64,000 nt of DNA from assembly GCF_030409795.1 (NCBI RefSeq), contig NZ_JAUFQN010000019.1, positions 1,674,001-1,738,000 of the forward strand. Direction: 5' to 3'. This DNA is from Flavobacterium paronense (GTDB taxonomy: Bacteria > Bacteroidota > Bacteroidia > Flavobacteriales > Flavobacteriaceae). Positions 29,264-34,373 of the stretch are shown here, piece by piece (within the stretch, counting starts at the first letter, position 1; every line of letters starts with the position of its first letter). The notes under the pieces were generated by a model. The model saw only the letters and a list, made by a program, of their open reading frames with translations, made no database searches and was not told the origin of the DNA. The position numbers and the translations under genes were made by a program.

Positions 29264-29950
29264 ATGGCAAATCCATTAATAAACATCAAGAAATTAACGC
29301 GTGATTTCCAACTCGGAAATGAAACAATCAACGTTTTAAAAGGCATCGATTTACAAATCAACAAAGGAGAATATGTTGCTTTAATGGGACCATCAGGTTC
29401 TGGAAAATCTACACTAATGAATCTTTTGGGATGTTTAGATACACCAACATCGGGGACATATATACTCAATGGGAAAGATATCAGCCAAATGCACGATGAC
29501 GATTTAGCCGAAATCAGAAACAAAGAAATTGGTTTTGTATTTCAAACCTTTAACCTATTGCCAAGAACAACCGCTTTAGATAATGTAGCATTACCAATGA
29601 TTTATGCTGGTTTTTCTAAATCAGAAAGAAACGAGCGTGCCACGGAAGTTTTGAAACAAGTAGCTCTTTCTGACAGAATGGATCACCAACCCAACCAGCT
29701 TTCGGGTGGACAGCGCCAACGTGTGGCTATCGCCAGAGCATTGGTTAATAAACCTTCAATCATTTTGGCTGATGAGCCTACTGGAAATTTAGATAGTAAA
29801 ACATCGATTGAAATTATGAATCTTTTCAACGATATTCACAAAAACGGCAATACAGTTATAGTTGTTACACACGAAGAGGACATAGCCAAATATGCTCACA
29901 GAGTTATTAGGATGAAAGACGGCATGATTGAAAGTGATACTTCAAAATAA
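29264..29950 (+). CDS. ABC transporter ATP-binding protein, LolD/MacB type
   Basis: 228-aa ATPase subunit with all motifs: Walker [12 protein letters not shown] (about residues 43-53), Q-loop [11 protein letters not shown], signature [16 protein letters not shown] (about 143-158), Walker [14 protein letters not shown] and switch His in VVTHEEDIA. The N-loop and the [14 protein letters not shown] phrase place it in the LolD/FtsE/MacB family, which drives lipoprotein release or mechanotransmission-type export. The membrane subunits are not adjacent. It converges with the carotenoid operon. Confidence 0.93.
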
Positions 29951-29965
29951 AAAAAACTCTCTATA

Positions 29966-30415
29966 TTAAATAGAAAAATATTTTCTTGGTACGTACAACA
30001 TTCCAAAACATTCTCCTTCTTCTTTGCCAAGATGTTTGTGGTGTATTTTGTGCGCTTTTCTTAACCCAACAAAATATTTAATCTTGGTTCTGGTAAACAT
30101 TTTTATCCGCTGGTGTATTATAATTTCGTGAATAAAAAAATAAGCCATTCCGTATAGTAAAATACCTAATCCAATAAAAAACAAATAGTTTAATTGTGGA
30201 TTAACTCCAAAATAAAAAAGCAAAATACTTGGTATAGCGAAAATGATAAAAAACAAATCGTTCTTTTCAAAAAAAGATAAATATTTTGGTTGGTGATGGT
30301 CTTCATGTAAATACCACAAAAAACCATGCATAACATATTTGTGTGTAAGCCATGTTACACATTCCATAATAAGAAAGGTAATTAAAGTAATTACAAAGTA
30401 TTGTAATGCTATCAT
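29966..30415 (-). CDS. crtZ: Beta-carotene hydroxylase, CrtZ type
   Basis: 149-aa integral membrane di-iron hydroxylase of the fatty-acid hydroxylase superfamily, expected to add 3- and 3'-hydroxyls to beta-carotene giving zeaxanthin. The His clusters are HKYVMH (about residues 25-30), HEDHH (about 37-41), HEIIIH and HKIHHKH near the C-terminus; four hydrophobic stretches lie between. It overlaps the crtB stop by four bases and is the last gene of the operon. No lycopene cyclase gene is present in the window, though one is needed to make its substrate. Confidence 0.9.
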   Translation of the reverse strand: MIALQYFVITLITFLIMECVTWLTHKYVMHGFLWYLHEDHHQPKYLSFFEKNDLFFIIFAIPSILLFYFGVNPQLNYLFFIGLGILLYGMAYFFIHEIIIHQRIKMFTRTKIKYFVGLRKAHKIHHKHLGKEEGECFGMLYVPRKYFSI

Positions 30416-31251
30416 AACATATAATTTAATTGGTACTTAACGTACGATTTTCCAACAATAAACAACTTACTAACATCATCGACTCTTATCCTTTTGCTTA
30501 AAATTTCTTCAGGTTGGGTTTTAGCTATTCTTTTTAACAAACTCATATAATATTTATAAGCGGTATAGACTCCAAATTTAGCTTCTTTAGGTAGATTTCT
30601 AATTCCAGTTAAAGCAATTTTAAAATCGTCTTCAATTTCTTTAATAATCTTATATTTATCTTCATTAGATAAAGTTAACAAATTTATTTCTGGAAAATAA
30701 ACCCTTCCTAAAGTTTCATAATCGTGTTTTAAATCTCGTAAAAAATTTACTTTTTGAAAGGCAGAACCTAGTTTCATAGCGCTATCTTTCAATTCGTTAT
30801 ATTTTTTTTCATCTCCATTCACGAAAACTTTCAAACACATCAATCCTACTACATCAGCAGAGCCAAATATATATTCTTCATATTCACTTATGGTCAAGTA
30901 TTCTTTTTTATTTAAATCCATTCGCATACTCTTTAAAAAAGGAACAACTAAATCCATAATGTCATACCTGTGCACTACATCTTGGAAGGCATTTAAAAGT
31001 GGATTAACACTTATCTTTCTGTCATATGCTTTGTAAAAATCGATTTCAAATTCTGTCAATAATTCTTCTTGGTTAAAATCATTGAAAGTATCAACAATTT
31101 CATCTGCACACCTTACAAAACCATATATAGCATATATATCATCTTGAATTTTTGATGAAAGTAATTTTATTGCCAGAGAAAATGATGTACTATAATTTTT
31201 AGTAATTATTTTACTGCAATCCAATGAAGATTTATCAAATAATTTTTTCAT
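30412..31251 (-). CDS. crtB: Phytoene synthase
   Basis: 279-aa trans-isoprenyl diphosphate synthase (phytoene/squalene synthase family) that joins two geranylgeranyl diphosphates to phytoene. The first Asp-rich motif is in CADEIVDTF (about residues 49-57), the second is represented by VNFLRDLKHDYETLGRVYFP (about 169-188). Start and stop overlap with crtI (TAATG at 31249-31253) and with crtZ (4 bases), so translation is coupled along the operon. A family alternative would be squalene synthase, but crtI and crtZ neighbours decide for phytoene synthase. Confidence 0.93.
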   Translation of the reverse strand: MKKLFDKSSLDCSKIITKNYSTSFSLAIKLLSSKIQDDIYAIYGFVRCADEIVDTFNDFNQEELLTEFEIDFYKAYDRKISVNPLLNAFQDVVHRYDIMDLVVPFLKSMRMDLNKKEYLTISEYEEYIFGSADVVGLMCLKVFVNGDEKKYNELKDSAMKLGSAFQKVNFLRDLKHDYETLGRVYFPEINLLTLSNEDKYKIIKEIEDDFKIALTGIRNLPKEAKFGVYTAYKYYMSLLKRIAKTQPEEILSKRIRVDDVSKLFIVGKSYVKYQLNYML

Positions 31252-32708
31252 TATTTATATGTTTTAATTATTTTATCACTTGCAATTTTTCCGGAAATTA
31301 AGGCCGGTGGAACACCTGGACCGGGAACAGTAAGTTGCCCTGTGAAATATAAATTAGCTACTTTTTTACTTTTTATTTTTGGTCTTAAAAAAGCAGTTTG
31401 AGTTAATATATTCGCTAATCCGTATGCATTACCTTTATATGAATTGTACTCTTTTTTAAAATCGTTGACACAAAATGATTCTTTAAAGATAATGTTTTCT
31501 TTTACCGATTGATTCGTTAATTTTTCAAATCGTTCGATAATTTTATTGAAATATTTTTCTCTAATCTCAGGAGTATCTTCTAAATCAATTGCTAATGGAA
31601 TTAAGAAAATACCAGCTTCAAAATCAGCAGGAGCACAAGAATCATCTGTTTTGGATGGAAAACTAGCATAAAACAAAGGATTTTGAGGCCATTGTTTTGT
31701 ATCATAAATTTCTATTGCATGTTGCTCAAATGGCGCATCAAAAAATAAAGTATGATGATTTACATTTTTTATTTTTTTATCAAACCCTACATAAAACAAG
31801 AGAGAAGATGGTGCAAATGTTTTTTTGTCCCAATATTTTTCTGAGTATTGACGATACGGTTTTTCTAATAAAGTTTCAGTGAAATGATAGTCAGCTCCAC
31901 TTAAAATGACATCAGTTTGAATAGTTTTACCATTCACTTGAATCCCAACAACAGTATTGTTTTCAATATTAATTTTTTCAACATTCGCGTCTACATGAAA
32001 TTTTACGCCTAGTTCTTTTGCTAAACTCTCCATGGCTTCCACAACTTTATACATACCTCCTTTAGGATGCCAAGTTCCCAAACCAAAATCGGCATAATTC
32101 ATAAAATTGTAAAAACCTGGTGTATTTGATGGTTTAGCTCCAAGAAACAAAACTGGAAATTCCAAAATTTGTTGCAAACGAAAATCTTTAAATTTAGATT
32201 TTACTGTTTTACTTATAGTAGAAAAAAACTGAGTAACGCGCAAAGCCGTTTGAGGAGTAATCAATTCAACTATAGAATCACCCGGTCTGTAAACTAAATC
32301 TTTGATTGCAATATCATAGTTCGTTTTAGCTTCCTCTATAAAGCTTTCTAATTTCTTTCCGCTTCCTTTTTCAATTGACTCAAAAGTTGATACAATTGAT
32401 TTTAGATTATCTGCAATTTCTATACTGTCATTTTCATTAAAGAACACTTTGTATGCTGGAGATAATTTTTCTAACAAATAATAATCAGATGCTTTTTTAT
32501 CAAAATCATTAAAAAATTTTTCAAATACATCAGGCATCCAATACCATGTTGGCCCAATGTCAAAAGTAAATCCATTCTTTTTTAGTTGTCTGGCTCTGCC
32601 TCCAATAGTGCTGTTTTTTTCGTAAACATCAACTTCACAACCTGCTTTAGCTAAATAACAAGAAGCTGCCAAAGAAGAAAAACCTGACCCAATTATTGTG
32701 ATTTTCAT
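31251..32708 (-). CDS. crtI: Phytoene desaturase
   Basis: 485-aa FAD-dependent CrtI-type desaturase that converts phytoene to lycopene by successive desaturations. N-terminal dinucleotide-binding motif IIGSGFSSLAASCYLAKAGC with acidic end VDVYEKN, then IGGRARQLKKNGFTFDIGPT (about 37-56); near the C-terminus the carotenoid desaturase signature LYFTGQLTVPGPGVPPALIS (about 452-471). Membrane-associated. It follows the MerR-type regulator gene by 57 bases, with a -7 box in the gap. Confidence 0.95.
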   Translation of the reverse strand: MKITIIGSGFSSLAASCYLAKAGCEVDVYEKNSTIGGRARQLKKNGFTFDIGPTWYWMPDVFEKFFNDFDKKASDYYLLEKLSPAYKVFFNENDSIEIADNLKSIVSTFESIEKGSGKKLESFIEEAKTNYDIAIKDLVYRPGDSIVELITPQTALRVTQFFSTISKTVKSKFKDFRLQQILEFPVLFLGAKPSNTPGFYNFMNYADFGLGTWHPKGGMYKVVEAMESLAKELGVKFHVDANVEKINIENNTVVGIQVNGKTIQTDVILSGADYHFTETLLEKPYRQYSEKYWDKKTFAPSSLLFYVGFDKKIKNVNHHTLFFDAPFEQHAIEIYDTKQWPQNPLFYASFPSKTDDSCAPADFEAGIFLIPLAIDLEDTPEIREKYFNKIIERFEKLTNQSVKENIIFKESFCVNDFKKEYNSYKGNAYGLANILTQTAFLRPKIKSKKVANLYFTGQLTVPGPGVPPALISGKIASDKIIKTYK

Positions 32709-32728
32709 TTTTTTAAAATAACGTTGAA

Positions 32729-32736
32729 CAAATATA
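32729..32736 (-). promoter_or_regulatory. -7 box for crtI
   Basis: Minus strand TATATTTG, 20 bases before the crtI start. The nearest TTG is 13 bases upstream, too close, so this promoter looks activator-dependent or weak. The same box with the same flank (AACAAATATA on the plus strand) lies upstream of the regulator gene. Confidence 0.5.
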
Positions 32737-32765
32737 CAATATAATTAAACAAAATAAATATAATT

Positions 32766-33662
32766 TTACAAAGCATCTATTAATTTTTCTGCAGAATTAT
32801 ATTGAAATACTGAAGGGACATTTAATTTTAAAGAAGAAGATTGGCGACCAGAAATATGTAGTTTACTTGAATTTTCTTTTAAAATTTTATTATAAAAATT
32901 CAAAATGTAATCATCTATTTCATCTGCTGTAGGCATAACAGTAAAGTGAGAAACATATTCGACATTATCATAAAATTTATTAATTTCTAATAAGTCTATA
33001 AAAGGAATGCTAGACCCAAAGTAAATGGTTTTATATCCTTTATTTATAAGGAGATAGTTAATAAACATCAAAGAAATTTCATGTGCTTCGTTTTCTGGAA
33101 GGAAAAGCACAAAAGTCTTTTCAGAGTCAATAAGTTTATTTTTAATTTGAATTGAACAGATATTTTCAACAAGTTTTTGATAAATCAAATTACTTATAAA
33201 GTGTTCGTGAATTGGTTTAATTGAATTAGTTTGCCATAACATCCCTATTTCACTGAGAAAAGGAATGTATATTTCTATAAAGATAGATGAAAAACTCTTG
33301 GTTTTCGTTAATTCATTGTGTGTTTCATTAAACAAAACGGCATCAAAATTAAGCATTGCTATTTTTAAAATATTTATTGCAAAGACAGAATTTGTTTTAT
33401 CAGAATAAACTTCTTTGACTAAATTATTTAATTCTAAGTCTGATAATTTAGCAATCCTAGAAATCTTATAACCGTAATTATTTAAAAAAGAAACATTCAG
33501 AAGTTTTTGAAATTCATCTAAAGAGTAATAACGAATATTTGTTTCGGTTCTACTGGGCTTAAATAACTGGTATCGTTTTTCCCAAATTCTAATAGTATGA
33601 GATTTTATCCCTGATAGATTTTCTAAATCCTTTATACTAAATTGAGATTTAATTTTGTTCAT
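32766..33662 (-). CDS. MerR-family regulator with B12-binding-type domain (CarH/LitR-like)
   Basis: About 298-aa regulator. MerR-type winged helix at the N-terminus (FSIKDLENLSGIKSHTIRIW, EKRYQLFKPSRTETNIRYYS), then a helical bundle and a Rossmann B12-binding-type domain. Motifs of adenosylcobalamin photoreceptors are kept: W143 followed after nine residues by E153-H154 (W-x9-EH) and a lower-ligand candidate H194 in ENEAHEIS (E-x-H). In CarH-type repressors, light breaks the cobalt-carbon bond and frees carotenoid promoters. The gene is immediately upstream of crtI and divergent from the adenosylcobalamin-forming enzyme. ATG at 33662 is chosen because a full promoter overlaps the longer TTG start at 33713. 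Confidence 0.9.
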   Translation of the reverse strand: MNKIKSQFSIKDLENLSGIKSHTIRIWEKRYQLFKPSRTETNIRYYSLDEFQKLLNVSFLNNYGYKISRIAKLSDLELNNLVKEVYSDKTNSVFAINILKIAMLNFDAVLFNETHNELTKTKSFSSIFIEIYIPFLSEIGMLWQTNSIKPIHEHFISNLIYQKLVENICSIQIKNKLIDSEKTFVLFLPENEAHEISLMFINYLLINKGYKTIYFGSSIPFIDLLEINKFYDNVEYVSHFTVMPTADEIDDYILNFYNKILKENSSKLHISGRQSSSLKLNVPSVFQYNSAEKLIDAL

Positions 33663-33683
33663 TAAATTATACTTTATTTTAAA

Positions 33684-33713
33684 CAAATATATGAATTGAA
33701 TATGATTAAGCAA
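33684..33713 (-). promoter_or_regulatory. Promoter of the MerR/B12-type regulator gene
   Basis: Minus strand: TTG (33711-33713), 19-base spacer, TATATTTG (33684-33691), 22 bases before the ATG at 33662. Both elements are perfect. Confidence 0.75.
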
Positions 33714-33773
33714 AATACTTCAGTTATTAATTGATTTAAATTAGTAATAATCCATTAAAACTTTAATTTTTGC

Positions 33774-33781
33774 TATTTTTG
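33774..33781 (+). promoter_or_regulatory. -7 box for the cobalamin adenosyltransferase gene
   Basis: TATTTTTG, 22 bases before the ATG at 33804; no TTG at the right spacing. It lies about 80 bases from the divergent regulator promoter, so a regulator bound between them could affect both. Confidence 0.55.
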
Positions 33782-33803
33782 AAATGAAATATTAAAATTC
33801 ATA

Positions 33804-34373
33804 ATGAAAGTATATACCAAAACAGGTGACTTAGGAAACACATCATTATTTGGTGGAACTCGTGTTCCAAAACACCATATACGTATTGAAAGTTACGGAA
33901 CTGTTGACGAACTAAACTCACACATTGGTTTAATTCGCGATCAGGAAATCAATCAATTATACAAAAATGTTCTGATTGAAATACAAGACCGCTTGTTTAC
34001 AGTTGGCGCAATTCTGGCAACTCCACCAGAAAAAGAAACACTAAAAAATGGACAACCTAGATTACAAAATCTAGGAATAACAGAAAGTGATATTGAATTT
34101 CTAGAAAAGGAAATAGACACCATGGAAGATTCCTTACCGCAAATGACACACTTTATTTTGCCTGGTGGACATACTACTGTGTCATATTGTCACATTTCAC
34201 GCTGCGTTTGCCGTAGAGCGGAACGTTTAGCTGTGCATTTACATGAATTAGAGCCTACCGATGAACTTGTAATAAAGTACCTAAACCGACTTTCTGACTA
34301 CCTTTTTGTATTGGCACGAAAGTTGTCCAAAGATTTGTCTGCAGATGAAGTACAATGGATTCCGAGGAAATAG
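33804..34373 (+). CDS. Cob(I)alamin adenosyltransferase, PduO type
   Basis: 189-aa ATP:corrinoid adenosyltransferase that transfers the adenosyl group of ATP to cob(I)alamin, making adenosylcobalamin. The PduO signature is complete: VYTKTGDLGNTSLFGGTRV (residues 3-21), SYGTVDELNSHIGL (about 31-44) and, near the C-terminus, RCVCRRAERLAVHL with the conserved Arg/Glu and LNRLSDYLFVLAR. Trimeric cytoplasmic enzyme. It stands divergently next to the B12-binding MerR regulator, a likely functional link. A long inverted repeat follows the stop codon. Confidence 0.95.
   Translation: MKVYTKTGDLGNTSLFGGTRVPKHHIRIESYGTVDELNSHIGLIRDQEINQLYKNVLIEIQDRLFTVGAILATPPEKETLKNGQPRLQNLGITESDIEFLEKEIDTMEDSLPQMTHFILPGGHTTVSYCHISRCVCRRAERLAVHLHELEPTDELVIKYLNRLSDYLFVLARKLSKDLSADEVQWIPRK

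Follow-up and report, generated by a model that had tools for sequence, protein, structure and literature searches.

In the 64,000-nucleotide stretch of the Flavobacterium paronense genome analysed here (the window; assembly GCF_030409795.1, contig NZ_JAUFQN010000019.1, positions 1,674,001 to 1,738,000), a gene for a MerR-family regulator (positions 32766–33662, minus strand, 298 aa) lies directly upstream of the carotenoid genes crtI, crtB and crtZ and is divergent from a gene for a PduO-type cobalamin adenosyltransferase. This gene order and the coordinates of all the open reading frames are as given in the initial annotation of the locus. The arrangement raises the question of which genes the regulator controls, whether it could do so in response to light via adenosylcobalamin (AdoCbl), and whether the neighbouring enzyme is part of the system. 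The regulator is probably a CarH-like photoreceptor with AdoCbl as its chromophore that represses a regulon for photoprotection and phototrophy. It would act on an inverted-repeat operator, and it lacks the upper His ligand of cobalt. The broader proposal, that such a photoreceptor switches proteorhodopsin phototrophy together with photoprotection across the Flavobacteriaceae through this newly recognised operator, is favoured by a narrow balance of the evidence. The predicted family-wide operator and regulon, including proteorhodopsin, would be the main result beyond the initial annotation, and the pairing with the enzyme appears to be incidental.

Domains and cobalamin pocket of the regulator

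Pfam domains scoring above the cut-off in the regulator are MerR_1/MerR (PF13411, PF00376) and B12-binding_2 (PF02607); matches at E ≤ 0.1 did not include the Pfam family of Rossmann B12-binding domains. A Rossmann domain is visible in the AlphaFold model (predicted local distance difference test score, pLDDT, 88.9) and in the superposition on CarH of Thermus thermophilus (TtCarH), which covers residues 91–298 with a root-mean-square deviation of 2.3–2.4. The model therefore departs from class II LitR proteins, which have the four-helix bundle only. Its best matches in the Protein Data Bank (PDB) are TtCarH, CtMerR and photocobilins (Z 16–18), and AppA SCHIC and AerR resemble it too, at a lower Z of 13–14. 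Among proteins of solved structure, CarH/LitR of T. thermophilus comes nearest in sequence.

The pocket was compared in 155 distinct core regulator sequences, including the window copy. W143, E153 and E192 are present in 155/155, H194 in 154/155 and H154 in 153/155, and the Wx9EH motif (W143-x9-E153-H154) is intact, which suggests that the pocket is under strong constraint. Of the elements that SignatureFinder gives for a light-responsive cobalamin domain, G140xxW143, E153H154 and G216xxxP220 are present and GxxH is missing. From the classic D/ExHx2G/P...SxT/V...GG motif ExH is kept, SxF mostly standing for SxT/V and LG or SG for GG.

The pocket residues listed in the initial annotation (W143, Q144, E153, H154, E192, H194 and S197) are all as described there. 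It had further singled out Q144 and the HxxS following the lower ligand as differences from CarH proteins; both are present, but only HxxS is an exception (Ser at position 197 in the window regulator and 5/155, Gly in 150/155), Gln at 144 being the rule of the family (152/155). Loss of the Trp, the EH pair or the lower His in orthologues, which it had named as evidence to the contrary, is nearly absent. Three relatives (L070, L090 and L150) lack one pocket residue each (EH to ER, EH to EN, and lower His to Asn, respectively) and might provide natural test cases for B12-independent versions. Because two pocket details depart from CarH, namely the absence of the upper His and of GxxH, the regulator is best labelled CarH-like and is not filed as CarH.

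Predicted operator and regulon across the Flavobacteriaceae

Promoters were compared at 146 distinct loci, each encoding a distinct protein; six loci without a clear ATG were excluded, and L033-L072 and L073-L152 share species. In 124 of these loci, a TAnnTTTG core fused to TTTAA is present upstream of the regulator gene, at a distance of exactly 25 nt from the ATG. The corresponding promoter in the window (33679–33691, minus strand) has the sequence TATATTTGTTTAA, in which the -7 box is fused to one operator half-site.

Between the regulator gene and crtI, a dyad TTGTTTAAC-N14-GTTAAACAA overlaps the Bacteroidetes -7 box. It occurs with ≤3 of 18 mismatches, mostly 0–1, at 67/146 loci for spacings 14–16 (62 loci at spacing 14 alone; 72 loci with ≤5 mismatches). 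None of 730 dinucleotide shuffles reached ≤3 mismatches, and no other spacing among those tried gave ≤3 mismatches in more than eight loci. With its core TAAACA, the half-site agrees with the TnnACA present in CarH repeats (PMC9304148), and an inverted arrangement of half-sites would be as expected for a dimer. The predicted operator in the window, at 32722–32752 on the minus strand, reads TTGTTTAA-N16-TTCAACG, an inverted repeat that encloses the -7 box TATATTTG, with 2 mismatches of 20 in the genome-search pattern and 4 of 18 in the half-site score.

A search of the own genome with the half-site alone (TAnnTTTGTTYAA) gave 34 matches as against 28 for the reversed-pattern control, which is near background, and the full dyad was therefore used for genome searches. 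Allowing ≤2 of 20 mismatches, and with the reversed pattern again as the control, a search of 199 genomes of the family, which represent 198 genera, found 418 dyad sites as against 68 for the control. The 150 genomes with a core regulator hold 393 sites (control 50), a mean of 2.62 per genome (control 0.33). The 38 genomes without the regulator, 18 of them assigned by elimination, hold 20 sites (control 12; mean 0.53 versus 0.32), and genomes with a divergent relative of the regulator have a mean of 0.45 (control 0.55).

Forty remote sites were chosen, not at random, as low-mismatch sites away from the regulator among the matches listed. Thirty-eight of them precede a reference-family gene, five of these matching only a self-derived reference. 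Recurrent families account for 32/40: fasciclin (16), GLPGLI (5), GHMP kinase, which is probably mevalonate kinase (4), TetR-ABC1 (4), and a gene next to DUF2805 that belongs to a photolyase cluster (3). Single cases are folE, msrA-folE, photolyase, desaturase, a DUF2867/SDR gene and proteorhodopsin/blh, and the target families recur across different genera. Control of photolyase, cryptochrome and folE by class II LitR is described for Pseudomonas (PMC9758184); thus, the content of the regulon fits a light response.

The own assembly (3.64 Mb, 26 contigs) includes six sites with ≤2 mismatches (control 0). They precede crtI, three copies of folE and a fasciclin gene, and one lies in the intergenic region that separates a 3-dehydroquinate synthase gene from a DUF2805-DUF2452-flavin-reductase group. 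With ≤3 mismatches there are 11 sites and 11 in the control; hence the TetR-ABC1 site of this genome, which has three mismatches, is weak.

The three folE copies carry an identical operator (C9:11308, C9:16160 and C19:1501276; L276, L277 and L279); two of them are inverted on a small contig, and the assembly is rated 9.66% contaminated. The divergent regulator clade (L336–L346) has an adjoining fasciclin-domain gene in 9/11 loci and crtI in 4/11, and four of its 11 own promoters (L339, L340, L344 and L346) keep TTGTTTAA followed by TTAGAC; the start codon at L337 is uncertain. A second regulator copy in genome G166 (L347) adjoins a photolyase gene, and the regulator copy L332 adjoins a DUF2867/SDR gene.

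A rhodopsin match was found in 51/199 genomes and in none of the contigs of the window's own genome. Promoters of 47 of the 53 matches were used, after exclusion of L348 and L349 (another rhodopsin type), L357 (46 nt upstream) and those from genomes G067, G104 and G045. In regulator-bearing genomes, TTGTTTAA-N16-TTAAACA is present with ≤2 of 15 mismatches in 26/38 proteorhodopsin promoters and with ≤3 in 32/38, mostly 45–60 nt before the ATG, as compared with 2/9 and 3/9, respectively, in genomes without the regulator, two of which are incomplete (G079, 81%; G147, 73%). Shuffles reached ≤3 mismatches in 8% of cases, and among 508 upstream regions of other genes none had ≤2 and 11 had ≤3. Half-site spacing does not differ between crtI and proteorhodopsin promoters, yet some proteorhodopsin promoters have the -7 box moved by one base. 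This speaks for the dyad rather than the promoter as the unit that is conserved.

The dyad supplies a candidate regulator of proteorhodopsin, together with the sites and genes on which it would act. Scavenging of vitamin B12 is presumed for many flavobacteria. If the proposal is true, B12 would be a point at which both phototrophy and photoprotection are controlled, and light-driven energy capture in marine flavobacteria would be tied to the supply of this vitamin. Proteorhodopsin expression rises in the light in some flavobacteria and not in all, according to a 2012 paper, which also states that no molecular regulators of this expression were known beyond its own Vibrio RpoS case (PMC3380642). 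In a study that compared flavobacteria having proteorhodopsin with others lacking it, the available text contains no MerR or cobalamin terms (PMC5932025). Light-induced carotenoid synthesis is reported for Chryseobacterium lacus, in which no known car or lit gene was reportedly found (PMC7064467). The titles and beginnings of abstracts listed from the open-access literature, which mostly leaves subscription papers outside, yielded nothing on this operator or on a link between CarH and proteorhodopsin in flavobacteria.

The carotenoid cassette and its adenosyltransferase neighbour

The regulator gene starts with the ATG at 33662; an alternative reading frame with a TTG start, reaching 33713, is less likely since relatives share the MNxIK start. 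After 57 bp it is followed on the same strand by crtI (31251–32708), crtB (30412–31251), which overlaps crtI by one base, and the crtZ-like gene (29966–30415), which overlaps crtB by four. CrtI scores best with NF058655 (CrtID, bifunctional phytoene desaturase/3,4-desaturase; 737 bits, cut-off 640) and CrtB is assigned by PF00494 (squalene/phytoene synthase). No Pfam match at E ≤ 0.1 was obtained for CrtZ, which is named from synteny and from the motifs HX4H and HX2HH in its sequence, which we take to be a hydroxylase signature. The initial annotation had proposed zeaxanthin as the product. This is unsupported, because the cassette has no lycopene cyclase gene and CrtI is of the 3,4-desaturase type by best score, and the pigment may be a different one.

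The adenosyltransferase (33804–34373, plus strand) matches Cob_adeno_trans with 208 bits, and TIGR00636 is also above its cut-off. Its position beside the regulator had been interpreted as an economical module of a B12 sensor with its cofactor enzyme, which synteny does not support. In a set of 118 regulator loci of at least 5 kb, three of which have <600 nt upstream and so could not reveal PduO, the regulator, crtI, crtB and crtZ occur in this order in 115, and PduO stands alongside the regulator in one, that of Flavobacterium aciduliphilum (L073). Conservation of the pair in other flavobacteria, proposed earlier as a check, was seen at this one locus of the set. PduO does not adjoin the regulator in any of 29 congeneric loci, these being the best-scoring of the 57 further genomes of the genus that gave a match. 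There, PduO is followed by DUF2795 and SecA in 28/29 loci and is preceded within 1.5 kb by an ABC ATPase gene, in the place of the regulator, in 23/29.

The left flank of this block is present in the window as the ABC ATPase gene (29264–29950, plus strand), and the crt cassette sits between it and PduO. The cassette appears to have been placed into a conserved ABC-PduO-DUF2795-SecA block, and the neighbourhood of regulator and PduO is best read as due to chance, the enzyme being judged to lie outside the system. In the 141-bp intergenic region between the two genes there is no dyad facing PduO, and the sole perfect half-site belongs to the promoter of the regulator. The own genome also holds frames of the methylmalonyl-CoA mutase type, and PduO therefore has other likely clients; one of the frames, with 1177 residues, has the length of a fused IcmF and may be that protein. 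In a CrtI tree that took in 37 of 118 CrtI rows, the window and F. aciduliphilum sequences group together (100/100) and stand away from seven further ones of Flavobacterium.

A tRNA gene, mostly for tRNA-Leu, lies within 300 nt upstream of the regulator in 71/146 distinct loci, the anticodon of the flanking tRNA-Leu being GAG where read. The site beside the crt cassette is a possible insertion hot spot.

Proposed mechanism, alternatives and known systems

In the dark, as the pocket and fold suggest, the regulator would hold AdoCbl with H194 below the cobalt and W143, E153 and H154 round the adenosyl group, and an oligomer would form. Comparative genomics predicts that this oligomer occupies the dyad that overlaps the crtI -7 box; in relatives it would also occupy the sites that precede genes for proteorhodopsin, GHMP kinase and fasciclin, folE, TetR-ABC1 and genes of the photolyase cluster. 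Blue-green light would then break the Co–C bond and loosen the oligomer, so that the genes could be transcribed. Dark repression with release in the light would be the likeliest mode because the dyad covers the -7 box. As Gln replaces His132 of TtCarH, bis-His ligation would be unusable for the release, which probably resembles that of CtMerR or of the photocobilins. The adenosyltransferase would supply AdoCbl to the whole cell and owe its position to the insertion of the cassette.

The fold, the conservation of the pocket, synteny and the shared predicted operator bear out the initial annotation of a B12 regulator that resembles CarH and has carotenoid genes linked to it. The pocket speaks for AdoCbl as the ligand, and so does the co-occurrence of a PduO-type adenosyltransferase, found in 157/161 regulator-bearing genomes versus 27/38 without the regulator. 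We infer that the regulator depends on both light and B12.

Several observations weigh against this reading. AdoCbl as the ligand is weakened by two 99%-complete genomes (G008 and G064) that keep the regulator without an adenosyltransferase of the PduO or CobA/BtuR type. In fold, other corrinoid proteins are close behind the best matches (methionine synthase, Z 15.5), and the NCBIfam CarH equivalog NF052513 gives 56.3 bits, below its cut-off of 400. The upper-ligand His (His132 of TtCarH) is missing, and N191xxH194 stands in place of GxxH (Asn in 143/155, Gly in 6/155). The half-sites are inverted with 16 bp between 8-mers and do not form the tandem 11-bp direct repeats of CarH. No second conserved half-site was found at the promoter of the regulator itself, 74/146 loci, mostly those with a short gap, have no good dyad before crtI, and the dyad in the window is weak, since 12/730 shuffles also reach ≤4 of 18 mismatches. 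Fisher tests between the regulator groups for proteorhodopsin, based on few genomes, gave 0.02 and 0.005, nominal values that are too small because the genomes are related. Constitutive proteorhodopsin is reported for one flavobacterium, D. donghaensis PRO95 (PMC3380642).

The missing upper His bears on whether cobalamin in the regulator serves light sensing at all. The protein could bind cobalamin and yet sense AdoCbl supply, redox or oxygen in the manner of AerR/AppA, which its model also resembles; this is unlikely, as W-x9-EH and GxxxP are kept and the regulon content suits photoprotection. Moreover, a light response is documented for cobalamin domains with Arg (CtMerR) or Gln (SasPcob) at the upper position (PMC11796333). 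The H132A variant of TtCarH is described as mostly tetrameric in the light, the same paper citing an earlier report of disassembly (PMC10442372). A B12-independent regulator like CarA, obeying an antirepressor or a partner photoreceptor, would be compatible with the degenerate SxT/V...GG tail motif and with the two near-complete genomes that lack a known adenosyltransferase. It is considered very improbable, since CarA of Myxococcus xanthus has lost the Trp of Wx9EH (PMC9304148), whereas this Trp and the lower His are nearly invariant here.

Other explanations concern the operator and the enzyme. The dyad overlaps the -7 box, and at least one site is present in 14/38 genomes without a detected regulator, so that it might be bound by another factor or mark a class of promoters, the regulator merely sharing the neighbourhood. 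This is unlikely in view of the drop of site numbers to near the control level where the core regulator is absent, of the constant spacing at crtI and proteorhodopsin while the -7 box shifts by one base, and of the dimer-like inversion of the half-sites. The idea that the two genes evolved together, the adenosyltransferase providing the sensor with cofactor and both perhaps being controlled from the 141 bp between them, is hardly credible: the window and F. aciduliphilum do have them side by side and divergent, but the pair was not seen in 117/118 loci, PduO occurs without the regulator in 29/29 congeneric loci, and the intergenic region offers no dyad toward PduO and no perfect half-site other than that of the regulator promoter.

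The CarH-like photoreceptor-repressor preferred here can be compared with several known systems. MliR, a MerR-like protein of Bizionia, was ruled out as a published orthologue since, as far as the part of its description at hand goes, it has no effector domain. CarA and CarH of M. xanthus and its relatives are family members that likewise repress carotenoid operons; unlike the regulator here, CarA is B12-independent and without the Trp, and the operators are 11-bp direct repeats (PMC9304148). The class II LitR proteins PplR1 and PmlR2 of Pseudomonas share a regulon of photolyase, cryptochrome and folE, but have no Rossmann B12 domain, act with LOV proteins and use the operator TGTACA-N12-TGTACA (PMC9758184). 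CtMerR (PDB 8jbs, 8jbt) and the photocobilin SasPcob (8j2w) are among the best structural matches and are light-responsive without the upper His, with Arg and Gln, respectively (PMC11796333); the DNA-binding domain of CtMerR is divergent, and in SasPcob a bilin-binding region replaces the MerR helix-turn-helix domain. CarH/class I LitR of T. thermophilus (PDB 5c8d, 5c8e), also among the closest known systems, agrees in its domains (MerR helix-turn-helix, four-helix bundle and Rossmann cobalamin domain), in Wx9EH and the His that serves as lower ligand, in being linked to carotenoid genes and in the TnnACA core of the half-site. The regulator of F. paronense differs from it by Gln for His132, Asn for Gly in GxxH, a sequence identity of 18–20% (structural alignment), a predicted operator that is an inverted repeat instead of tandem 11-bp direct repeats, and a wider predicted regulon.

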